Made by a program: the position numbers and the translations under genes. This document shows positions 51,628-62,154 of a stretch of 64,000 nucleotides of DNA, one piece after another. The notes below the pieces were generated by a model. It saw only the letters and a program-made list of their open reading frames with translations. It did not search any database and had not been told where the DNA came from. Within the stretch, counting starts at the first letter, position 1. The number at the start of each line of letters is the position of its first letter. The stretch is from Microvirga soli (GTDB lineage Bacteria; Pseudomonadota; Alphaproteobacteria; Rhizobiales; Beijerinckiaceae). Location: NCBI RefSeq assembly GCF_016734765.1, contig NZ_JAERQE010000023.1, positions 1-64,000 of the forward strand, written 5' to 3'.

Positions 51628-52998
51628 ATGCTTCGAACCTTTTTCATATGTCTTGCTGCATTGCTCGCTCCCACAGTCTTCATCGGGACTGCCATCGCGG
51701 CTGAAAAGGTGCGCGTTCTCACGTCTTTCCCACCGCAGTTTCTCGAGCCGTTCCAGAGAGCCTTCACAAAGCGCCATCCCGCGATTCTCATTGAGTTCGT
51801 GCAGCGCAAGACGACGACGGCGCTGGCAGACATCGTTGGCGACAGGCACAAAGCGGACATATTCTGGGCGTCGGCGCCGGATGCCTTCGAGATTCTGAAG
51901 AGGGTAGGCCGCCTGACGGAGCTGAAGCCGCGCCCTACGGGCGCTCCGGACCTTATCGCGGGCTATCCGGTAAACGATCCGGACCTGATGTATCTCGGCT
52001 TCGCCCTGTCGGGCTACGGGTTCGTGTACAATCCCGACTATCTCAAGGAGCGGGAACTGCCCGTGCCTAAGGGCTGGAGCGATCTCGCGGCGCCCATCTA
52101 TGCCGGGCACATCGGCATCAGCTCCCCGTCTCGGTCGGGCACGATGCACCTCATGGTCGAGGCCATTCTCCAAGTCTACGGGTGGGACCGTGGGTGGGGC
52201 ATCTGGTCCGAGATTGGCGGCAATCTCGCGACCGTCACGGCGCGAAGCTTCGGCGTTTCGGCGGGTGTTGCCCGAGGGCGTTTCGGGGTCGGGCCCTCAA
52301 TCGACTTTCTAGCAAAGCCCGAAGGCATGCCCGAGGGGGCGACCACCCGCTTCGCCCTCCCCGAAGAGACGCTGTTCGTACCCGCCAGCATCGCAATCCT
52401 GACCGATGCGGCCAATCGGGAGGGTGCCGAACGCTTCATCGATTTCGTATTGTCGCCAGACGGGCAGGCTCTTCTGCTGGACCCTGCGGTCGCGCGGCTG
52501 CCGATCTCTCCCTCTGTCTATCCGACCGATGGGTCGACGGATGGCAACCCCTTCCAACATGACAGTTTGTTTGCCAGGGGGTTGTTCGATGCGGGGCTCT
52601 CGGCCGCCCGCTACGAGCTGGTCAACATCATCTTCGATGAGATGATCACTTTTCGCAGATCGGACTTGGGGCGCATGTGGCGATCCGTGCGGGCGATGGA
52701 AGCGGCCCTGTCGGAGCGCTCCGACACGGATCTGGCAAAGCTGGTGAGCGATGCGCGCGGCGCCCTGACGCGGCCGCCCCTGAATGGCACGGAGGCCATG
52801 GAGCTGGAGCGCTGGAAGGACCTCGTTCGGGTACGGCGTGGGCTTCCCACACCCGAGCCCCAGGCCCGGCTCGAAGCCCACATCAAAGCCCGGATCGATG
52901 AGAACATGCGACGGGCGGCGCAAGCGCTGACCGATGCAGCCGCAAGATTGGGCGCGGCCGAATGGGACGCTCAGGGCCCAGAGGCCTCAAGGCCATGA
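51628..52998 (+). CDS. PgtC-like periplasmic binding protein (signal-sensing subunit)
   Basis: A 456-residue type 2 periplasmic binding protein with a signal peptide (residues 1-24, TAIAAE). Key segments are KADIFWASAPDAFE (about 76-88), PSRSGTMHLMVEAI (about 167-180) and PSIDFL (about 223-228). Residues from about 350 form a helical C-terminal extension. It is followed with an ATGA overlap by a histidine kinase and then a response regulator, the arrangement of the Salmonella PgtC-PgtB-PgtA phosphoglycerate-sensing triad. It most likely presents ligand to the kinase rather than to the permease, because the transporter has its own binding protein. Automated tools would call it iron-binding. 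Confidence 0.8.
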   Translation: MLRTFFICLAALLAPTVFIGTAIAAEKVRVLTSFPPQFLEPFQRAFTKRHPAILIEFVQRKTTTALADIVGDRHKADIFWASAPDAFEILKRVGRLTELKPRPTGAPDLIAGYPVNDPDLMYLGFALSGYGFVYNPDYLKERELPVPKGWSDLAAPIYAGHIGISSPSRSGTMHLMVEAILQVYGWDRGWGIWSEIGGNLATVTARSFGVSAGVARGRFGVGPSIDFLAKPEGMPEGATTRFALPEETLFVPASIAILTDAANREGAERFIDFVLSPDGQALLLDPAVARLPISPSVYPTDGSTDGNPFQHDSLFARGLFDAGLSAARYELVNIIFDEMITFRRSDLGRMWRSVRAMEAALSERSDTDLAKLVSDARGALTRPPLNGTEAMELERWKDLVRVRRGLPTPEPQARLEAHIKARIDENMRRAAQALTDAAARLGAAEWDAQGPEASRP

Positions 52999-54902
52999 TG
53001 ATCCGGCGGATGCGCCTCGGGATCGGCGGACGCCTCATCATCGCCTTCCTCGGAGTGGGCGGGCTCGCGGTCGGCGCATGCATCGTGGGCTGGCTGTCCT
53101 ATGCCCGCCTCAGCGAAGAGCTGAATTCCGTGGCGACAGCTCACCTTCCGGCCCTCGCGTTCTCCGCCCGCCTGGCGGAGGCAGGCGCGAACGTGATCGC
53201 CAGCACGCCCGATCTGGCGGTCGCGGAGCGCCGGGAAGCCTATGACAGAATTCGCAAGACGCTCGTCGAACGTGTGTCCGTGCTCCGCGCCGTCCTCAAC
53301 GAGCGGAACGACGAGCATTCACTTTCGCCTGATCTTCTCGTCGTGACAAATGGCATTGAGGCTAACCTCAATGCCATCGACCGGGTGGCCGACCGGCGCT
53401 TTCCCCTGCATGAACGCGCGCGTGCGATCAGTGAGGAATTGCGATGGCTGCAGGCCGATCTGATTGAAGAGATCGAGCCGCTCATCGACGACGCCCGCTT
53501 CAACATGGAATCGGCTATCGGCAGGGTCGCACCTGGCGAGGCAGCCGAGGCAGGACGAAAGACTCTGTTGGAGGAGAGCCGCAAGAGCGAGTCCCTCTTA
53601 ACCATCAATGCCTATGCCAACCTGATCGTGGGGCTACTGGGCCGGCTTGGAACCGTGCCGACGGTCGAGGACCTTCGGGAAACGAGCAACTTCCTCGGTG
53701 AGATGACGGATCAGTTTGACCTGGAAACCAAGGCGCTCGCCAGCTGGACAGATACGATCACCATCGGCCAGATCGCGACACGCCTCCTGGCCGTCTCCGA
53801 TCCGGCATCCGGGCTCGCTGCCTTGAAGCGGGCAGAACTCGAAGCCATCGCTGATGGGCAGGCGCTTCTTGCCGAGAACAGACGCCTTGTCACCCAGCTC
53901 GGTATACTTGTGTCTCAGGAGGTCAATCGTACGGAAGCGATTGCTCGAAGGGCGGCGGAGCGTTCCGCCGATGCCATCGCGATCGGGCGCAATCTCCTTC
54001 TGGCAATCGCCGTCACGTCACTCGCCATCACGATCGCGATCGGCTGGTTCTATGTCCGAAGGAACCTCGTCGTGCGTCTCCAAGGGCTGACTTTGGCGGC
54101 GACGACCATTGCGAGTGGCCCCACGATGCCGGTCCTGCCGCCTCCAACCGATGACGAACTCGGCGATCTCGCCAAGGCGCTTGCCGTCTTCAGACAAACC
54201 CGGGACGACTTGGTCCAGGCCGCCAAGCTCGCTGCGCTCGGCCAGATGTCTGCAGGCATCAGCCATGAGCTCAATCAACCTCTCGCGGCAATCCGCTCGC
54301 ACGCATACAACGGCGCCGTGCTGCTCCAGCGCGGGCGCCCGGAGGAAGCAGGGGCCAGCTTCGATCGGATCCAGGGACTGACGACCCGGATGGCGGAGCT
54401 GATCAAGCATCTCAAGCGCTTCGCCCGCCGCCCGGCCGCAGCTCTCGAAGCAGTCGATCTGCGCGCCGCCGTCGAGGGCGGCTTAAGCCTATTCGAGCAG
54501 CGTATCGATGCGGAGAAGGTCGCGGTGCGGATGAACTTTCCGGATGCTTCCCTCAAGGTACTGGCTGAGGAGGTCAGGCTGGAGCAGGTGATCGTCAATC
54601 TGATTTCGAATGCGCTCGACGTGGTCGAAGGCCAGACGGACCGTCGCATCGACATTGCCGCCGAAGCCAGGGAAGGTCGTATCCGCCTGGCGGTCACCGA
54701 CAACGGGCGGGGCATCGCAGAGCAGCACCGCAGCGCCATCTTCGACCCGTTCTTCACCACCAAGCCTGCTGGTCTGGGGCTCGGACTCGGACTGTCCATG
54801 TCGTACAACATCGTGAAGGATTTTGGAGGAGACTTGATCTTGGCGACGACAGGACCGACGGGAACGACCTTCGTGATCGATTTGGCGGCGAGCGAGGCAT
54901 GA
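52995..54902 (+). CDS. PgtB-like membrane sensor histidine kinase
   Basis: A 635-residue kinase starting at the ATGA overlap with the binding-protein gene. TM1 is at about residues 13-35 and TM2 at about 333-354. The roughly 300-residue periplasmic domain between them is almost all helical. A HAMP region follows (to about 405). The catalytic core has ISHELNQPLAAI (phospho-His about 424), VNLISNALDVV (N box), VTDNGRGIAEQ, DPFFTTKPAGLGLGLGL and a final beta hairpin. This is the DctB/NtrB-like class. It should phosphorylate the NtrC-type regulator that overlaps its 3' end. Another in-frame ATG at 52962 would overlap the upstream gene by 37 nt. Confidence 0.88.
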   Translation: MMIRRMRLGIGGRLIIAFLGVGGLAVGACIVGWLSYARLSEELNSVATAHLPALAFSARLAEAGANVIASTPDLAVAERREAYDRIRKTLVERVSVLRAVLNERNDEHSLSPDLLVVTNGIEANLNAIDRVADRRFPLHERARAISEELRWLQADLIEEIEPLIDDARFNMESAIGRVAPGEAAEAGRKTLLEESRKSESLLTINAYANLIVGLLGRLGTVPTVEDLRETSNFLGEMTDQFDLETKALASWTDTITIGQIATRLLAVSDPASGLAALKRAELEAIADGQALLAENRRLVTQLGILVSQEVNRTEAIARRAAERSADAIAIGRNLLLAIAVTSLAITIAIGWFYVRRNLVVRLQGLTLAATTIASGPTMPVLPPPTDDELGDLAKALAVFRQTRDDLVQAAKLAALGQMSAGISHELNQPLAAIRSHAYNGAVLLQRGRPEEAGASFDRIQGLTTRMAELIKHLKRFARRPAAALEAVDLRAAVEGGLSLFEQRIDAEKVAVRMNFPDASLKVLAEEVRLEQVIVNLISNALDVVEGQTDRRIDIAAEAREGRIRLAVTDNGRGIAEQHRSAIFDPFFTTKPAGLGLGLGLSMSYNIVKDFGGDLILATTGPTGTTFVIDLAASEA

Positions 54903-56248
54903 GTGCGAAGCCGAAGGTCGTCCTGGTGGACGACGACCAGGAAGTGCTCGACGCCTACCGGCAGACGCTGGAACTCGATGACTTCAACGTCACTGCGGTT
55001 GGCTCTGCCAAGGCAGGCATCGACATCCTGTCGCCGGATCTCCGGGCCGTTGTCGTGAGCGATGTTCGGATGCCTGGGCTCGACGGCTTCGGCCTCCTCG
55101 ACGCCGTCCGCGCAATCGACCCAGAGATCCCGGTGGTCCTCGTGACCGGCCACGGCGATGTGCCGATGGCCATTAAGGCGGTTCGAGCCGGCGCCTGGGA
55201 TTTCATCGAGAAGCCGGCCGATCCCGTGCGGCTCGTCGAGACGGTCAGGCGCGCATTCGCACACCGCAGCCTCATTCTCGAAAACCGGGCTCTCCGGGCA
55301 GGAACCGCGGATCAGGATTCCATCGTCAGCCGGCTCGTCGGGCGCTCCACCGCCATCGAACGGCTGCGGCGCATCCTTGGAACACTCGCGGAGGCCGAGG
55401 CCGACGTGCTTCTTCTCGGCGAGACGGGCACGGGCAAGGAGGTCGCCGCCCGCGCTCTCCATGATTTTGGAAGCCGACGGAAGGGGCGGTTCGTAGCGGT
55501 CAATTGCGGCGCGATGCCGGAAACCATGATCGAGAGCGAACTCTTCGGTCACGAGCCCGGTTCCTTCACCGGAGCCCGCGAGCGGCGGATCGGCAAGATC
55601 GAGCATGCGAGTGGCGGCACGCTCTTTCTCGACGAGATCGAGTCCATGCCTTTGACGGCGCAAATCCGGCTGCTGCGGGTACTCCAGGAACGAACCATCG
55701 AACGCCTTGGGTCGAACAAGGAGATCCCGGTCGACATCCGCGTTATAGCCGCCACCAAGGCGGATCTTACCGAACTGGCAGGCAAGGGCGCATTCCGCGA
55801 GGACTTGGTCTATCGATTGAACGTCGTCACGGTTCGCCTTCCGCCGCTCCGCGAGCGGCGGGATGATGTGCCAGTGCTTTTCAGTCATTTCCTCCATCTC
55901 GCGGCTGCCCGGCAGGCGAGGGCGGCGCCATCGCTCGAACCGTCCTTCCTAGAACGGCTCCAGCAGCAGCAATGGCTTGGAAACGTGCGCGAGCTGCGGA
56001 ACGCTGCCGAGCGATACCTCCTCGGTCTCGATGAGGACGATCTGCCTCAGGTGGGCCTGAGCCCTCCTAGTGCGCTGAGCCTCGAACAGCAGATGGAGGT
56101 CGCCGAACGCCGCGTCATTGAGGAAGCCCTCGTGCGCTTCGCCGGCCGCATCGGCACAACTGCAGAGGCACTCGGGATCACCCGCAAGACCCTTTATCTT
56201 AAAATGAAGAAGTACGATCTCGGTCAGACGGGTGAGATCGAAGTCTGA
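54899..56248 (+). CDS. Sigma-54-dependent response regulator (PgtA/DctD-like)
   Basis: A 449-residue NtrC-class activator. The receiver has the phospho-acceptor Asp55 (VVVSDVRMPG) and a Lys near 105 (IEKP). The AAA+ domain has Walker A GETGTGKE (174-181), a GSFTGA sigma-54 contact loop (221-226, variant of GAFTGA) and Walker B LFLDEIE. A Fis-type helix-turn-helix ends the protein (IGTTAEALGITRKTLYLKMKK). A sigma-54 promoter lies 124 bp downstream of its stop, before the transporter operon, giving an evident target. The gene overlaps the kinase by an ATGA. Confidence 0.92.
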   Translation: MSAKPKVVLVDDDQEVLDAYRQTLELDDFNVTAVGSAKAGIDILSPDLRAVVVSDVRMPGLDGFGLLDAVRAIDPEIPVVLVTGHGDVPMAIKAVRAGAWDFIEKPADPVRLVETVRRAFAHRSLILENRALRAGTADQDSIVSRLVGRSTAIERLRRILGTLAEAEADVLLLGETGTGKEVAARALHDFGSRRKGRFVAVNCGAMPETMIESELFGHEPGSFTGARERRIGKIEHASGGTLFLDEIESMPLTAQIRLLRVLQERTIERLGSNKEIPVDIRVIAATKADLTELAGKGAFREDLVYRLNVVTVRLPPLRERRDDVPVLFSHFLHLAAARQARAAPSLEPSFLERLQQQQWLGNVRELRNAAERYLLGLDEDDLPQVGLSPPSALSLEQQMEVAERRVIEEALVRFAGRIGTTAEALGITRKTLYLKMKKYDLGQTGEIEV

Positions 56249-56371
56249 TGTTACCCATCTGACCCATGGGGCTGGAGGGAGGTTACCGTCCTTTCCCAAA
56301 TCGGCTGCCCGTTCGGGAGTTGCGCCTGGAAATCCTTTCTTAGAACAATGGTACTGTGATTGGGCCAAGTT

Positions 56372-56387
56372 TGGCACGATTGTTGCA
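56372..56387 (+). promoter_or_regulatory. Sigma-54 (-24/-12) promoter
   Basis: TGGCACGATTGTTGCA matches the sigma-54 consensus (TGGCAC-N5-TTGCA) with the invariant GG at 56373-56374 and GC at 56385-56386, exactly 10 bp apart. It lies 63-78 bp upstream of the transporter binding-protein ATG. Predicted transcription start is about 56398. The activator is very probably the NtrC-class regulator encoded just upstream. Confidence 0.88.
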
Positions 56388-56449
56388 TAAGGCTTTACGG
56401 CCGCCCTCGCGCGGACCCAAGTCAAGAGCCAGCAAGTTGGAGGAAACTG

Positions 56450-57772
56450 ATGCTTCGCCATTCCGTCGCCGCGGCGGCATTGATCGGAACCGCCCTGTTT
56501 ACAGGGGCTGCCTTCGCCCAGTCCGGCAAGGTCACCGTCGTAACCTCGTTTTCCAAGGATGTGACCGATCCGTTCAAGCAGGCTTTCGAGAAGGCACACC
56601 CGGGTGTGACCCTGGATGTCCAGAATCGCAACACGAACGCGGGCGTGAAGTTCCTCGAGGAAACGAAAGCCAACAACCAAGTCGATATCTTCTGGGCCTC
56701 TGCCCCGGACGCCTTCGAAGTTCTGAAGAGCAAGAGCCTGCTTCAGAAGCATAAGCCGAAGGCCGAGGGCATTCCGGACAAGATCGGCTCCTATCCGATC
56801 AACGACCCCGAGAATTTGTATTCCGGCTTCGCGGCATCCGGCTACGGCATCATGTGGAACGACCGCTACGCCAAAGCGAACAAGCTGCCTGAACCCAAGG
56901 ATTGGCAGGATCTCGCCAAGCCCGTCTACTTCGATCACGTCGCCATGGCAGCGCCCTCGCGCTCAGGTACGACGCACCTCACCATTGAGACGATTCTGCA
57001 GGGCGAGGGCTGGGAGCAGGGGTGGCGCACGCTCAAGGAAGTGTCCGGAAACTTCCGCCAGATCACGGAGCGTTCCTTCGGCGTGCCGGAGGCGGTCAAT
57101 TCGGGGCAGGTCGGCTTCGGCATCGTGATCGACTTCTTCGCCTTCTCGGCCCAGGCTTCTGGCTTCCCGGTGAAGTTCGTCTATCCGACTGTGACAACAA
57201 TCGTTCCGGCGAATGTCGCTGTGGTTGCCAATGCTCCCAACAAGGCTGGGGCCGAGGCCTTTGTCGACTACCTCGTCTCTCCCGCTGGGCAGGAAGTGCT
57301 GCTCGAGCCAAGCATCCGCCGCTTGCCCGTGAACCCGGCAGTCTACGCCAAGGCTCCGGCGGATTATCCGAACCCCTTCAAGGATCCGTCCCTGGGGTCG
57401 CGGGTGAAGTTCGACGTGGACGTGTCGGAGAAGCGCACGAACGTGGTCGACGTCCTCTACGACCAAACCGTGACGTTCCAACTCGACGCGCTCAAGGCGG
57501 CGACCAAGGCCATCCACGACGCCGAGGCCGCGATTGCCAAGAAGGACAACGCGGATGCCAAGGCTCTGGTGAAGGAGGCTCGTGGCCTCGTAGCCGCCGT
57601 GCCGGTCACCGAGCAGCAGGCTTCATCGCCCGAGGTCGCCGGCGCCTTCACGGGCGGCAAGGAGAAGGGGGCTCGCCAGGCCGAGCTTGAGCAACAATGG
57701 GCCGCGTTCGCCAAGGAGCGTTACCAGCAGGCACAGGCCAAGGCCGAGCAGGCCCTGAAGCTCGCACGCTAA
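56450..57772 (+). CDS. AfuA-like periplasmic binding protein of the organophosphate ABC transporter
   Basis: A 440-residue periplasmic binding protein with a signal peptide cleaved near GAAFAQ (residue 23-24). Motifs shared with the 51628 paralogue are VDIFWASAPDAFE (78-90) and PSRSGTTHLTIETI (169-182). The pair of tyrosines that bind Fe(III) in FbpA is replaced by IDFF (227-230). Residues 345-440 form an Ala/Lys/Glu-rich helical extension. GGAGG precedes the ATG. It is expressed from the sigma-54 promoter upstream and is followed by an intercistronic hairpin and the permease gene. AfuA of Actinobacillus, once called an iron protein, binds sugar phosphates; this one likely binds a phosphorylated metabolite. 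Confidence 0.85.
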   Translation: MLRHSVAAAALIGTALFTGAAFAQSGKVTVVTSFSKDVTDPFKQAFEKAHPGVTLDVQNRNTNAGVKFLEETKANNQVDIFWASAPDAFEVLKSKSLLQKHKPKAEGIPDKIGSYPINDPENLYSGFAASGYGIMWNDRYAKANKLPEPKDWQDLAKPVYFDHVAMAAPSRSGTTHLTIETILQGEGWEQGWRTLKEVSGNFRQITERSFGVPEAVNSGQVGFGIVIDFFAFSAQASGFPVKFVYPTVTTIVPANVAVVANAPNKAGAEAFVDYLVSPAGQEVLLEPSIRRLPVNPAVYAKAPADYPNPFKDPSLGSRVKFDVDVSEKRTNVVDVLYDQTVTFQLDALKAATKAIHDAEAAIAKKDNADAKALVKEARGLVAAVPVTEQQASSPEVAGAFTGGKEKGARQAELEQQWAAFAKERYQQAQAKAEQALKLAR

Positions 57773-57780
57773 TCGTTCCG

Positions 57781-57810
57781 GCGGGCGGCTGGCGTAAGCG
57801 AGCCGCCCGC
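57781..57810 (+). other. Intercistronic hairpin between binding-protein and permease genes
   Basis: A perfect 10-bp GC-rich stem (57781-57790 with 57801-57810) with a 10-nt loop, 8 bp after the stop codon. It lacks an immediate U-tract. Such hairpins after binding-protein genes commonly protect the upstream message and let it be more abundant than the permease mRNA. Confidence 0.7.
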
Positions 57811-57842
57811 ACAAGCCCTTTTCGTATTTTAGGAGAGCGTCC

Positions 57843-59582
57843 ATGGCTGGCGCCACGACCGCCGGGCGAGCGCATGCGCCGTCCGTGTCTTCCAGGTTCA
57901 TGCGATTGTCGGCGACGCCGGGGCAGATCGCCCTCGCACTGGGGATTACTGTCTTCCTCGTACTGTTCCTCATCGTGCCTGTCGGAACGGTGATCTATGT
58001 CGCCTTTACGGAGAAGGGAACGGGCGAGTTCACCCTGGTCAATTTCCTCGACTTCGCCCGAACAGATCTGTTCATCCGCTCGTTCTGGAATTCGGTTTAT
58101 GTATCCGCGATGTCTGTGGTCGTCGCGTCGATTTTCGCTCTTCCACTCGCCTACATCACCACGCGGTTCGAATTTCGCGGCGCAATGCTGATCCAGACAC
58201 TGGGCTTTCTGCCTTTGATCATGCCGCCGTTCGTCGGCGCGGTCGCCATGCTGCTGCTGTTCGGCCGGAACGGCACGGTAAACCTGCTTCTGGATGAGTG
58301 GTTTGGCATCAAAATTCCCTTCATGGAGGGACTGAACGGGGTCATCTTCGTTCAGGCCGTGCATTACTTCCCGTTTATCCTCATCAATCTCTCGACGGCT
58401 CTGCGCAATATCGACCGATCGATGGAAGAGGCGGCGCAGAATCTCGGCAGCTCCGGGTTCCGGCTGTTCCGCCGCATCGTCTTCCCGCTTGCCATGCCGG
58501 GCTATATCGCCGGCGCTTCGCTCGTCTTCGTCAAGGTCTTCGACGATCTCGCGACACCGCTGCTCCTGAACGTCAAGGACATGCTGGCGCCGCAGGCCTA
58601 CCTGCGTGTCACCTCCATCGGCATCGCCGACCCAATGGGATACGTGATCTCCGTCGTGCTGATCTGCATGTCGATCCTGGCCATGTGGATTTCCGCCCGC
58701 GCCATGCGCGGCAAGGATTACGCCACGGTGCAGCGGGGCGGTGGCGGCCTAGCGAAGCGCACGATGCGGCCTTGGGAAAGTGCGCTCGCCTATGCGGCCG
58801 TTCTGCTTATCTTGCTGCTTGTGCTGGCACCCCATATCGGGCTGCTGCTGCTTTCCTTTGCGACCATATGGTCCTTCAGCCCGCTGCCGGATGCCTTCAC
58901 CCTGGCGCATTACGGCCGCGTGTTCGGCGAGAGCTTCGTGTACGTCAAGAACACCCTCCTCTATGCCTCCATCGCGGGTTTGATCGATGTGGTTCTTGGC
59001 ACCGCTATCGCTTATCTGGTCCTGAGAACGAAGCTCATCGGCCGCGAATGGCTCGACTGGGCCGCGACCGCCGCTCTGGCCATACCGGGCGTCGTGCTCG
59101 GCATCGGCTACCTGAGGACCTTTTATGGGGTGCAGCTTCCCGACGGCACCCCGCTCGCTACCCTGTGGATCACGATTGTGCTGGCGCTGGCGATCAGGCG
59201 TCTGCCTTACGCCCTGCGCGCATGCTACGCCGCCCTGCAGCAGATTTCGGTCTCGCTCGAGGAAGCAGCGGAGAATCTCGGCGCTACAAAGATGCGCACG
59301 GTCCGCCGCGTGGTGCTACCGCTCATGGCAGGCGGCATCCTGGCGGGCTTCGTCACAAGCTTCGCAACCGCTGCTGTGGAGCTCTCGGCGACACTGATGC
59401 TTGTCCAGTCAAACGCGGACGCGCCTCTCGCCTATGGCCTCTACGTCTTCATGCAGTCGGCAGCCGGGCGCGGGCCCGGGGCGGCGCTGGGCGTCATCGC
59501 CGTGCTGCTCGTCGCTCTTTGCACCTTCGCGTCCCACATGATCATCGAGAAAAGCCAGAGGGCAAAAGGAGCCAGCCGCTAA
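57843..59582 (+). CDS. ABC transporter permease, fused two-domain (FbpB/AfuB type)
   Basis: A 579-residue inner-membrane protein with about twelve helices in two BPD-transport domains. EAA loops are MEEAAQNLGSSGFRLFRRIV (first half, about residues 196-215) and LEEAAENLGATKMRTVRR (second half, about 474-491). Both halves of the channel are in one polypeptide, as in FbpB and AfuB. AGGAGAG precedes the ATG. It works with the binding protein upstream and the ATPase 28 bp downstream. Confidence 0.93.
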   Translation: MAGATTAGRAHAPSVSSRFMRLSATPGQIALALGITVFLVLFLIVPVGTVIYVAFTEKGTGEFTLVNFLDFARTDLFIRSFWNSVYVSAMSVVVASIFALPLAYITTRFEFRGAMLIQTLGFLPLIMPPFVGAVAMLLLFGRNGTVNLLLDEWFGIKIPFMEGLNGVIFVQAVHYFPFILINLSTALRNIDRSMEEAAQNLGSSGFRLFRRIVFPLAMPGYIAGASLVFVKVFDDLATPLLLNVKDMLAPQAYLRVTSIGIADPMGYVISVVLICMSILAMWISARAMRGKDYATVQRGGGGLAKRTMRPWESALAYAAVLLILLLVLAPHIGLLLLSFATIWSFSPLPDAFTLAHYGRVFGESFVYVKNTLLYASIAGLIDVVLGTAIAYLVLRTKLIGREWLDWAATAALAIPGVVLGIGYLRTFYGVQLPDGTPLATLWITIVLALAIRRLPYALRACYAALQQISVSLEEAAENLGATKMRTVRRVVLPLMAGGILAGFVTSFATAAVELSATLMLVQSNADAPLAYGLYVFMQSAAGRGPGAALGVIAVLLVALCTFASHMIIEKSQRAKGASR

Positions 59583-59610
59583 TTGCGTCTGACCCGAGGA
59601 AACGAAACCC

Positions 59611-60708
59611 ATGAACCAGCCTCTCCCCATTTCCGAACTCGGCACCAACGCCGTCGATGTCGACATCCGCAATGTCGATCTGTCCTACGGCACAAACCAT
59701 GTCCTCAAGGGCATCAACCTGCATATCCGACCCGGCGAGTTCTTCGCCTTCCTCGGTCCGTCCGGATGCGGAAAGACCACTCTGCTGCGCTTGATCGCAG
59801 GGTTCAACCAGACCGATGGCGGCGAGGTTCTGGTCGGTGGCCGGGACGTGTCGCGCTTGCCGCCCTGGAAACGCGACGTGGGCATGGTGTTCCAATCCTA
59901 TGCCCTGTGGCCCCACATGACGGTGAGGCGCAACGTTGCGTTTGGTCTCGAGGAGCGAAAGGTTTCACGGGCCGAGATCGAAAGGCGCGTCGCGGCCGCT
60001 CTGGAACTCGTCGGGCTCGCGCACCTCGCCGACCGGCGTCCGTCGCAGCTCTCAGGTGGCCAGCAGCAGCGTGTCGCGGTAGCCCGTACCATTGCCATCG
60101 AGCCAAAGGTTCTGCTTCTCGATGAGCCCCTGTCGAATCTGGACGCCAAGATGCGCGTTCAGGTGCGGCGGGAACTGCGCGATCTGCAGCAGCGGCTTGG
60201 CCTCACAACGATCTTCGTCACCCATGACCAGGAGGAGGCCAACACGATCTGCGACAGGATCGCCGTTATGAACGACGGAATCGTGCAGCAGGTCGGCACG
60301 CCCATGGAGCTCTATGAAAAACCTGCCAATTTGTTCGTGGCGAACTTCCTTGGCACGGCGAATATCCTGCCGGGCCGCGTGGTGCGCGAGGGCGGTGAGC
60401 GGTTTTTCGACATCGATGGCGGCGTTCGCCTACCGATCCCGGCTCAGGTTGTCGTGCCGGAGGGGGCCAAGCTCGTCTTCCGACCGCAGCATGCATCCCT
60501 GGCTGGGCACGGTGCGGGCGATGTCCTGCTGCCGGGCACCATCGTGCACAGTGAATTCCTTGGCTCCACGCTGCGTTATGTCGTGAGGATCGGTGCCGCG
60601 GAGGTCTCCATCGACACGCCTTTCCATTCGGGAGAGACGCTCCACCAGCCAGGCACCTCCGTGGAGATCAGCCTGTCCCTACGCTCAGCCCTCTGGCTCG
60701 CTGCCTGA
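59611..60708 (+). CDS. ABC transporter ATP-binding protein (FbpC/AfuC type)
   Basis: A 365-residue ATPase. Walker A GPSGCGKT (49-56), signature LSGGQQQR (147-154), Walker B LLLDEPLSNLDA (168-179) and the H-loop Thr-His-Asp are intact. A C-terminal TOBE domain (about 280-360) is typical of sugar, polyamine and iron importers of the CUT1/FbpC class. It powers the permease encoded just upstream. The adjacent phosphatase genes support a phosphorylated substrate. Confidence 0.93.
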   Translation: MNQPLPISELGTNAVDVDIRNVDLSYGTNHVLKGINLHIRPGEFFAFLGPSGCGKTTLLRLIAGFNQTDGGEVLVGGRDVSRLPPWKRDVGMVFQSYALWPHMTVRRNVAFGLEERKVSRAEIERRVAAALELVGLAHLADRRPSQLSGGQQQRVAVARTIAIEPKVLLLDEPLSNLDAKMRVQVRRELRDLQQRLGLTTIFVTHDQEEANTICDRIAVMNDGIVQQVGTPMELYEKPANLFVANFLGTANILPGRVVREGGERFFDIDGGVRLPIPAQVVVPEGAKLVFRPQHASLAGHGAGDVLLPGTIVHSEFLGSTLRYVVRIGAAEVSIDTPFHSGETLHQPGTSVEISLSLRSALWLAA

Positions 60709-60800
60709 GGCGCCCCATCGCACGGCATCGCCCTCAAGCGGAAGAAATGCTCTCCCTTCCGCCGTTGGCACTCCGTTCCGCAAGAGTTAGTACTGACCGC

Positions 60801-61469
60801 ATGCCTTCCCTTAAAGCCATCATCTTCGATCTGGACGGAACCCTCGTCGACAGCGCACGCGACCTCCGGGACGCGGTGAACGTCCTTCTGTCGGAGGAGG
60901 GGCTCCGACAGATCGATCTCGACGAAGTCAAGTCCATGATCGGCGACGGCGCTCCCAAGCTCGTGGAGCGTGCTGTCTCGGCGACGGGAGGGGATCTGTC
61001 GCGCCTTCCTACGCTCGTGGTCCGCTTCCTGCAGATCTACGAGGCCAATGCGTCTCGCCATACCGAGGCCTATCCAGGCGTCGTGGAGACGCTGTCCGGT
61101 CTGCGGGAGCTTGGGATTCCGTTGGCGGTCGTCACCAACAAGCCCTACGCGGCTACCATCGAGATCCTGGAGGCGCTCAACCTGCGGGCCTATTTCGATG
61201 TCATTGTCGGGGGTGACACCCTTCCCGAGCGCAAACCGCATCCGGCTCCGATCCATGCAGCGCTGAAGCGTCTAGGCGTGGCTCCTGAAGCAGCACTCAT
61301 GATCGGCGACAACTACCATGATGTGCAGGCCGCCCGGGCAGCCGGCGTGCGCGCCTTCGCGGTGACCTATGGCTACAGCCACAAGCCTCACGCGGAACTG
61401 GGCGCGGAGCGCCTGATCGACACCATGTCCGAGCTGCTGCCCATCGTGGCGAACGACGCTGCCACGTGA
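60801..61469 (+). CDS. HAD-family phosphatase (phosphoglycolate-phosphatase-like)
   Basis: A 222-residue HAD hydrolase. Motif I is IIFDLDGTLVDS with the nucleophile Asp, motif II is VVTNKPYA, and motifs III-IV are ERKPHPAPIH and MIGDNYHDVQAA. The helical cap (about residues 20-85) is type C1, as in Gph and related phosphatases. It follows the ATPase by 92 bp on the same strand, probably within the same transcript. It would dephosphorylate an imported organophosphate. The exact substrate is unknown. Confidence 0.88.
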   Translation: MPSLKAIIFDLDGTLVDSARDLRDAVNVLLSEEGLRQIDLDEVKSMIGDGAPKLVERAVSATGGDLSRLPTLVVRFLQIYEANASRHTEAYPGVVETLSGLRELGIPLAVVTNKPYAATIEILEALNLRAYFDVIVGGDTLPERKPHPAPIHAALKRLGVAPEAALMIGDNYHDVQAARAAGVRAFAVTYGYSHKPHAELGAERLIDTMSELLPIVANDAAT

Positions 61470-61524
61470 AATACCGAAAAAGGCGCGGTCGAGCGGCAGA
61501 ATTTTCATCCTGGAAACATGATCT

Positions 61525-62154
61525 ATGAGACTCATCCTGATGCGTCACGGCGAGACTGTGTGGAACGCGGAGCGCCGTCTGCAGGGTCATGCAGACGCTC
61601 CCCTGTCGCCACGCGGCATCGAGCAGGCCCGGCGCGCGGCCAAGTTCTTCGAGGACGGGCCGGCCCCTGGTCTCGTCATGTCGTCCGATCTGAGCCGGGC
61701 TCGCCATACGGCTGAGCTTCTCGGTTTTACCGATTTCGCAACCGACGAGCGCCTGCGCGAGATGGATCTCGGCGACTGGACTGGACGATGGATCGAGGAG
61801 ATCGAAGCATCCAACCGGTGCGCCTACCGCGACTGGCGGCTTGGATCCTACACGCCGTCGGGCGGTGAAGGGTGGAAGCCGTTCCGCGAGCGCGTCGGCG
61901 CAGCGATCAATGACGCCGTCAACCGGTCCGAGGGTGACGTGGTCATCGTCGCCCATGAGGGGGTGGTCCGGGCCGCCTGCGACGTGTTGGTAGGTTTAAC
62001 GCCATCCAACCTGTCGCCCATTGCACCAGCGGCCATCACGATCTTCGATATCAATCGCGCGGCGCAATGGCCCGGCGCACGTCTTGTGGCATTCAATATA
62101 ACTCCGTCACCGGACGACTTGAGAACGTCAGGCCTGGATCACGCTCCTGTCTAG
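61525..62154 (+). CDS. Histidine phosphatase family (phosphoglycerate-mutase-like) protein
   Basis: A 209-residue branch 2-like or cofactor-independent phosphatase of the phosphoglycerate mutase superfamily. The RHG motif is MRHGETVWNAERRLQGH with the catalytic His, the Arg in SSDLSRARHTAE follows, and the second His is in IVAHEGVVRA. It lies 55 bp after the HAD gene and completes the module. Members act as broad phosphatases or on sugar and alcohol phosphates. Confidence 0.86.
   Translation: MRLILMRHGETVWNAERRLQGHADAPLSPRGIEQARRAAKFFEDGPAPGLVMSSDLSRARHTAELLGFTDFATDERLREMDLGDWTGRWIEEIEASNRCAYRDWRLGSYTPSGGEGWKPFRERVGAAINDAVNRSEGDVVIVAHEGVVRAACDVLVGLTPSNLSPIAPAAITIFDINRAAQWPGARLVAFNITPSPDDLRTSGLDHAPV

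Follow-up and report, generated by a model that had tools for sequence, protein, structure and literature searches.

Introduction

In the described phosphoglycerate system, PgtC is the sensor of 3-phosphoglycerate (3PG), PgtB acts as the kinase and pgtP is activated by PgtA (PMC11077982); the antiporter PgtP takes up 2- or 3-phosphoglycerate and phosphoenolpyruvate (PEP), and Salmonella can use these compounds as sole phosphorus source (PMC10715179). Among importers of the ATP-binding cassette (ABC) type, AfuABC was itself once mis-annotated as a ferric iron transporter, and H205, D206 and E229 are given as the sugar-binding residues of AfuA, mutation of H205/E229 having abolished binding (PMC4546632); PMC8427247 was a further source of AfuA comparison residues. 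Here we describe a block of eight genes in a stretch of 64,000 nucleotides from Microvirga soli (contig NZ_JAERQE010000023.1, positions 1 to 64,000; hereafter the window), in which a sensing triad resembling PgtC-PgtB-PgtA stands before an ABC importer and two phosphatase genes.

An earlier reading of this DNA (the sequence-only reading) had taken the block for a self-contained module for sensing, importing and dephosphorylating an organophosphate, a word that rests on homology and linkage, ligand and transport being predictions from sequence. We consider it probable that the block encodes a Pgt-type system that senses a phosphorylated C2-C3 acid, imports it through an ABC transporter and, in many lineages, dephosphorylates it; the most likely cargo would be phosphoglycerates, PEP or a close phospho-acid. 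The component parts are of known kinds; what seems to be new is the coupling of a Pgt-type sensor to an ABC importer and, as it appears, to TctCBA in two relatives. No description of a Pgt-type triad with an ABC importer was found in the openly licensed literature searched, which is weak evidence of novelty.

Results

Eight open reading frames (ORFs) lie open and collinear on the plus strand between 51628 and 62154, in a genome of 6.2 Mb (G000:C91), and their Pfam domains agree with the gene families named in the sequence-only reading; the ATGA overlaps said to join the first three genes are likewise present, at 52995-52998 between the first binding protein (SBP1) and the kinase and at 54899-54902 between kinase and regulator. 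The remaining gaps, from the regulator to the end of the block, are 201, 70, 28, 38 or 92, and 55 bases, the fourth depending on the start of the HAD phosphatase gene, which is ambiguous (60747 or 60801). The second binding protein (SBP2) starts at 56450 and not at the mechanical ORF start of 56360; all ten Microvirga and Chelatococcus copies, the window's included, align from 56450. Conservation in relatives, which had been proposed as a check, was found: the identical eight-gene order was present in all nine loci returned by a scan of genome contigs (six Microvirga, one of them a metagenome assembly, and three Chelatococcus), with identities of 70-98% for SBP1 and 88-98% for SBP2, and because of this recurrence the block is not a chance arrangement. 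The nearest named relatives at the locus are Microvirga, SBP1 being 98% identical in M. splendida.

The first three genes form a PgtC-PgtB-PgtA-type sensing triad. SBP1 (51628-52998), the putative sensor subunit, is a periplasmic binding protein of the SBP_bac_6 family that has its pocket residues and a C-terminal extension in common with PgtC of E. coli and Plesiomonas; the sensor histidine kinase (52995-54902) has HisKA and HATPase_c domains, a HAMP domain just under the Pfam cut-off and a TorS-like helical sensor domain; and the PgtA/NtrC-type response regulator (54899-56248) has Response_reg, Sigma54_activat and HTH_8 domains. Binding protein, kinase and regulator follow in this order on one strand, as they do in the E. 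coli and Plesiomonas loci, and in the window block no PgtP antiporter adjoins the triad, an ABC importer being in that place. Of the NCBIfam models, PgtB matches the kinase best (217 bits) and TorS second (150 bits); a profile search with the PgtB model at 1e-100 matched 0 of 398 genomes of the phylum. The kinase sensor domain was modelled from the first 396 residues and an alignment of five sequences (pLDDT 71, pTM 0.55), and the top PDB matches of the model are the TorS sensor domain/TorT complexes 3o1i, 3o1j and 3o1h (E 4e-6 to 1.3e-5; TM by target 0.73-0.76, with 0.76 for 3o1i). Because these best matches are TorS sensors complexed with TorT, the domain as modelled belongs, by its fold, with sensors that receive their signal through a periplasmic binding protein; the Pfam model TorS_sensor_domain itself scored 20 bits, under its cut-off of 27. 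Elsewhere in the genome, at G000:C137:14093-15271, the kinase sensor profile has another match, with a lower score (166 bits).

For comparison we used the pgt locus of E. coli plasmid p542099_1, whose regulator exceeds the PgtA cut-off (725 versus 650 bits), and a Pgt-type locus of Plesiomonas, in which the triad has the order C-B-A, an MFS antiporter and a pyruvate kinase lie on the opposite strand, and the regulator is best matched by PgtA, under the cut-off. The pgtB of the E. coli plasmid (L081, 5782-9092) is open in two overlapping frames and not in one.

The window regulator carries the sigma-54 loop GSFTGA, the Walker A motif GETGTGK, the Walker B motif GGTLFLDE and a Fis-type HTH_8 domain; together with a promoter at its target, it thus has everything looked for in a sigma-54 activator (GAFTGA-type loop, Walker A and B, Fis-type helix-turn-helix, -24/-12 promoter). 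That promoter, predicted for the importer genes, occupies 56371-56387 on the plus strand and agrees with the consensus at 13 of 13 positions; the strict pattern TGG[CT]A[CT]N5[CT]TGC has only one match on both strands of the 64 kb, at 56372, between the regulator and SBP2. When the 260 bases upstream of SBP2 were scored over the 13 consensus positions (threshold of at least 11, 300 shuffles), 27 of the 32 triad loci reached the threshold, at most 1 of 300 shuffles being as good. No triad was present in the fetched flank of 19 importer loci; two of these gave no score (L147, at a contig end, and L152), and none of the other 17 reached 11, the best scoring 9. In L111 a triad beyond the nearby contig end is conceivable. 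Expressed by genus group, the promoter was found in 16 of 18 with the triad versus 0 of 12 without it, counts in which g-numbered genera are taken as distinct from named ones and the loci, being related, are not statistically independent. Where other genes part importer and regulator, in two Azospirillum loci and one Aminobacter locus, it is the importer that keeps the promoter. The triad in Salmonella order with an ABC importer instead of PgtP, as originally claimed, is borne out by the pocket residues described below, the TorS fold and this promoter linkage. In Azospirillum (L069, 9760-13101; L077, 12386-15727) triad and importer are parted by opposite-strand genes for an aspartate-alanine antiporter and an aspartate decarboxylase, and in Aminobacter (L070, 9894-17879) by an ectoine synthesis/uptake cluster.

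Five triad loci are without the promoter, two of Paracoccus and three of genus g92. In both Paracoccus loci the sigma-54 loop of the regulator is lost (none) or altered (GALTEA); the E. coli and Plesiomonas regulators are without the loop, and their intergenic regions have no sigma-54 promoter on either strand (best 9 of 13). We tentatively propose, jointly with the importer family discussed below, that loss or change of the loop accompanies absence of the promoter in E. coli, Plesiomonas and Paracoccus. The g92 loci (L149, L150 and L151) are followed by a 354-residue ORF that reads LacI-like by eye and by a second ABC set.

A candidate regulator binding site, GTTAC-N5-TGACCCAT, is placed just after the regulator stop (56250-56267, plus strand), and a weaker second copy, with the GTTAC half only, lies 32 bp downstream (56282-56299, plus strand). 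The site at 56250 is the sole perfect match in the 6.2-Mb genome, which holds four matches with one mismatch and, with up to two mismatches, 63 matches versus 34 for a reversed control. It follows the regulator stop in all ten Microvirga/Chelatococcus loci, with TGACCCAA in L013. In other regions the full site occurs in L030 (two copies, 34 bp apart), L031 (ending CCAA), L070 and L072; P. denitrificans, E. coli, L033 and L069 have a TGACCCA that lacks the GTTAC half.

The binding proteins were compared in an alignment of two PgtC proteins, 11 SBP2, 10 SBP1, three further triad proteins (two adjoining TctCBA and one near a contig end) and two contrasts, later extended by three PDB chains and by six of the eleven other SBP_bac_6 proteins of the same genome. 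Both PgtC proteins and the 24 aligned triad and importer proteins have in common, in SBP2 numbering, S-R-S-G/D-T, H176, E180, W188, W192, G200-N201, R208-S209-F/Y-G, I227-D228 and P253, with single substitutions in E. coli (D173), L030_SBP2 (A170), Paracoccus SBP1 (M170 and Q201) and Maritalea SBP1 (A200). As a whole, this set was not found in S. meliloti PhnS2, AfuA, P5PA, 8x1a or the six own-genome paralogues, several of which keep the SGT phosphate loop (S172-G173-T174 in SBP2, S170-G171-T172 in SBP1). A split with 99% ultrafast bootstrap (UFBoot) support separates a PgtC-like group of 27 proteins from the other ten; the group includes the Azospirillum protein L084, which has a long branch and retains only part of the residue set. 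SBP2 (56450-57772; SBP_bac_6) belongs to a clade with 100% support, and the branching order among SBP1, SBP2 and PgtC is poorly supported (backbone UFBoot 26-65). Both window proteins end in a C-terminal extension of about 100 residues (52700-52998 and 57450-57772), partly common to PgtC and missing in PhnS2.

Behind SBP2 the importer comprises a fused two-domain permease (57843-59582, plus strand; BPD_transp_1 twice in one protein, nearest NCBIfam model PhnU2) and an ATPase with ABC_tran and TOBE_2 domains (59611-60708, plus strand). One could take this for an AfuABC-type hexose/heptose phosphate importer that has acquired a sensor of its own: the build is equal, the SGT loop is kept, and both SBP1 and SBP2 have AfuA and P5PA near the top of their PDB matches. 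However, in pairwise phmmer alignments Ile and Val stand at the positions of AfuA H205 and E229 in both proteins (D206 remains Asp), basic residues stand at those of G36 (Arg or Lys; Thr in Azospirillum SBP1), S147 and S184, and the binding proteins group apart from AfuA at the split given above, all of which makes such an importer quite improbable. Of the AfuABC-like importer originally proposed, the build has thus survived, and the binding protein groups with PgtC instead. We infer that the extra basic residues would suit a ligand more anionic than hexose phosphate. The closest curated models for binding proteins, permease and ATPase alike are those of the 2-aminoethylphosphonate importer (PhnS2/PhnU2/PhnT2, AepXVW-like), but every score is under its cut-off (103 and 125 versus 393 bits for the binding proteins, 174 versus 593 for the permease, 388 versus 458 for the ATPase), S. 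meliloti PhnS2 is without the common pocket residues, and no phosphonate-cleavage gene is annotated in the fetched sequence of the eight annotated relatives, the gene table being incomplete; phosphonate import is very improbable. Identity as an AfuA hexose-phosphate protein and identity as a PhnS2 phosphonate protein were both rejected on pocket residues and scores. Ferric iron, finally, would be the cargo by public annotation, relatives' permeases being labelled 'iron ABC transporter permease'; the Pgt-type pocket and triad and the phosphatase linkage speak against it, AfuABC was such a mis-annotation (PMC4546632), and we regard iron import as extremely improbable.

The last two genes encode a HAD phosphatase of the phosphoglycolate phosphatase (Gph) type (60747-61469, or from 60801, plus strand; HAD_2) and a histidine phosphatase of branch 1 (61525-62154, plus strand; His_Phos_1). 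The former scores 218.9 bits against TIGR01449 (phosphoglycolate phosphatase), over the cut-off of 180, which was exceeded in 1 of 14 control genomes. A Gph-type match occurs in 60 of 60 genomes of the family sample, with at least 55% identity to the block HAD in only five besides the window's; the next Gph-type gene of the window's own genome is 38% identical, and on sequence the block HAD is not the ordinary Gph. For the histidine phosphatase no NCBIfam model exceeded its cut-off; its nearest solved chains are the phosphatase 1ebb/1h2e and CobC 6nru, and a close homologue (68%) was present in 1 of the 59 other family-sample genomes (G1013).

Downstream of the ATPase, 21 of the 32 triad loci, or 11 of 18 genus groups (Paracoccus being mixed), carry one or both phosphatases: both in seven Microvirga (window included), four Chelatococcus and two Azospirillum loci, the histidine phosphatase alone in Aminobacter, P. 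denitrificans, Pseudochrobactrum, Ensifer, Shinella and L116, and the HAD alone in Maritalea and L146. Among importer loci without a triad the HAD was found in 3 of 19 (L110, L119 and L180). This census used a BLAST limit of 1e-7, which weaker matches could escape, and its plasmid loci are a sample of ten blocks taken from listings of 36 and 31 plasmid records. The sequence-only reading had tied the phosphatases to the system and had named a transporter never linked to them in homologous blocks as evidence to the contrary; linkage in 21 loci upholds the tie, with the amendment that the conserved core consists of six genes and the phosphatases are frequent accessories outside it. It is also conceivable that importer and sensor act on an organophosphate and that the two phosphatases have nothing to do with them and were retained alongside by chance, as the absence of phosphatases from the other 11 triad loci might suggest, and likewise the close HAD homologues of G1026 and G1030, around which the fetched sequence shows no importer. 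Differing sets (HAD only, histidine phosphatase only, both) recurring in 11 genus groups argue otherwise, as does a close HAD directly after an ATPase of this type in three of those five family-sample genomes (G1013, G1045 and G1009; G1013 is the Chelatococcus composti block, L016, already counted), and we hold chance retention to be unlikely, though not negligibly so. The notion that the linkage is peculiar to Microvirga and Chelatococcus, entertained while the first four distant loci had none, was dropped after the named plasmid relatives and the wider census. Another genome of the window's genus carries a 79% identical HAD (L177, 6727-7374), no importer being present within the fetched 18.5 kb, and in P. 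denitrificans (L071, 3042-5528) two phosphatase genes lie directly upstream of the triad, behind a second ABC set of the iron type; they encode an inositol monophosphatase and an AphA acid phosphatase.

In Pseudochrobactrum the histidine phosphatase is followed by a pyruvate kinase gene, and in Plesiomonas such a gene is next to the antiporter; none was seen near the other annotated blocks. These two placements fit PEP or phosphoglycerate as cargo.

As to spread, 9 of 297 genomes of the order have the kinase sensor domain (these counts include the window's own genome), and a broader profile, which is likely to pick up other TorS-like kinases as well, matched 44 of 398 genomes of the phylum; the importer permease is present in 19 of 297 genomes at order level and in 14 of 385 at class level. 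Order and class also hold more kinases whose sensor domain is related (L041-L062). In two genomes of genus g74 (L033, 3644-11819; L034, 7859-15847) the triad precedes TctC, TctB and TctA by Pfam (TctB was scanned in L033 only), and a sigma-54 promoter, with 12 of 13 positions in one and 13 of 13 in the other, lies between triad and TctCBA. L033 also has a dihydroxyacetone kinase gene nearby.

Discussion

The architecture of the locus, its promoter, the shared pocket residues and the gene linkage are read from the sequence itself; the ligand and its transport, docking and DNA binding, co-transcription and the substrates of the phosphatases we infer as follows. SBP1 would bind a small phosphorylated acid in the periplasm (3- or 2-phosphoglycerate, PEP, or a relative such as phosphoglycolate) and would dock on the TorS-like sensor domain of the kinase, which would phosphorylate the regulator. 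The regulator would in turn bind the GTTAC-N5-TGACCCAT sites some 90-120 bp upstream of the sigma-54 promoter and open it, and SBP2, the fused permease and the ATPase, presumably co-transcribed, would import the same ligand as SBP1 senses. The HAD and histidine phosphatases would then release phosphate and carbon acid from it.

Several observations weigh against this account. The kinase and regulator score well under the equivalog cut-offs for PgtB (NF047794; 217 versus 1000 bits) and PgtA (NF047793; 326 versus 650 bits), the regulator match ranking behind ntrC and three others, and even the Plesiomonas comparison is imperfect: its kinase is best matched by PgtB under the cut-off, and the best model of its antiporter, the PgtP subfamily, is under its cut-off (247 versus 408) and barely above UhpC (245). 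The pocket was read from alignments because the AlphaFold model of SBP2 (eight close sequences) had a pLDDT of 41, and two alignment methods set AfuA in differing register around G36/H205, so that single-residue assignments are provisional. Genus g92 combines the triad and a GAFTGA loop with no sigma-54 promoter (L149, L150 and L151). The full candidate site was present in just 4 of the 14 other regions screened, and TGACCCA in neither direction in six of them (L034, L035, L036, L073, L077 and Plesiomonas). The triad loci without a phosphatase are L030, L031, L035, L036, L140, L145, L148, L149-L151 and P. zhejiangensis, of which L140, L145 and L148 have the triad only partly on the contig.

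The TctCBA-linked triads belong here too. TctCBA is a family best known for carboxylates, and because the triad adjoins it in g74, the ligand sensed there could be an unphosphorylated acid. Extended to the window, this would mean that an unphosphorylated polyanionic acid (a di- or tricarboxylate) is sensed and imported, the phosphatases being passengers or serving phospho-derivatives made inside. The same triad type and sigma-54 promoter before TctCBA and the 11 triad loci without a phosphatase are in keeping with it; yet the pocket has the residues of PgtC, which belongs to a system responsive to 3PG, phosphatases recur beside the importer, and a pyruvate kinase does so once, and we judge a carboxylate cargo distinctly unlikely. 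A phosphorylated C2-C3 acid is the cargo that we prefer.

A broader proposition, which we advance tentatively and at somewhat less than even confidence, is that these loci represent an undescribed ABC importer family for phosphorylated C3 acids (phosphoglycerates, PEP) whose binding proteins, one for import and one for sensing, are sisters with the same pocket, and that a single interchangeable Pgt-type sensor has become coupled to three transporters unrelated to one another: the OPA-family antiporter PgtP, the ABC importer and TctCBA. If this is true, Alphaproteobacteria of at least three orders (Hyphomicrobiales, Rhodospirillales and Rhodobacterales) can import phosphorylated three-carbon acids by an energy-coupled route and can sense them beforehand; the label of 'iron transporter' would be corrected, surveys of phosphorus and carbon cycling would gain a new marker, and it would become testable whether a conserved binding-protein pocket predicts the ligand while the transporter is swapped.

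Set beside known systems, the locus shares with the pyridoxal phosphate importer P5PAB the protein family and the phosphate loop, and differs from it in pocket residues; the available part of the P5PAB description mentions no triad. PhnS2-PhnT2-PhnU2 (AepXVW-type) supplies the nearest curated models for the importer, yet the scores are under the cut-offs and the pocket differs. With TorT-TorS the likeness is in the fold of the sensor domain and in a periplasmic binding protein that presents the ligand to the kinase; TorT is of another binding-protein family, and TorS is a hybrid kinase without an importer. AfuABC has the same set of binding protein, fused permease and ATPase, and the SGT phosphate loop, whereas the window proteins are without AfuA H205 and E229 (by phmmer alignments, the residues being provisional) and their importer has a binding protein that is about 100 residues longer, falls in the PgtC group and is paired with a sensor triad. 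The closest likeness in sensing is to PgtCBA-PgtP of Salmonella and E. coli, which has the C-B-A order, the binding-protein residue set, the C-terminal extension and, in E. coli plasmid p542099_1, TGACCCAT once between pgtP and pgtC. In contrast to that system, the window has an ABC importer and a second PgtC-type binding protein in place of the antiporter, its regulator keeps the sigma-54 loop and its importer has a sigma-54 promoter, neither of which was found in the E. coli and Plesiomonas loci, and phosphatases come after the importer.

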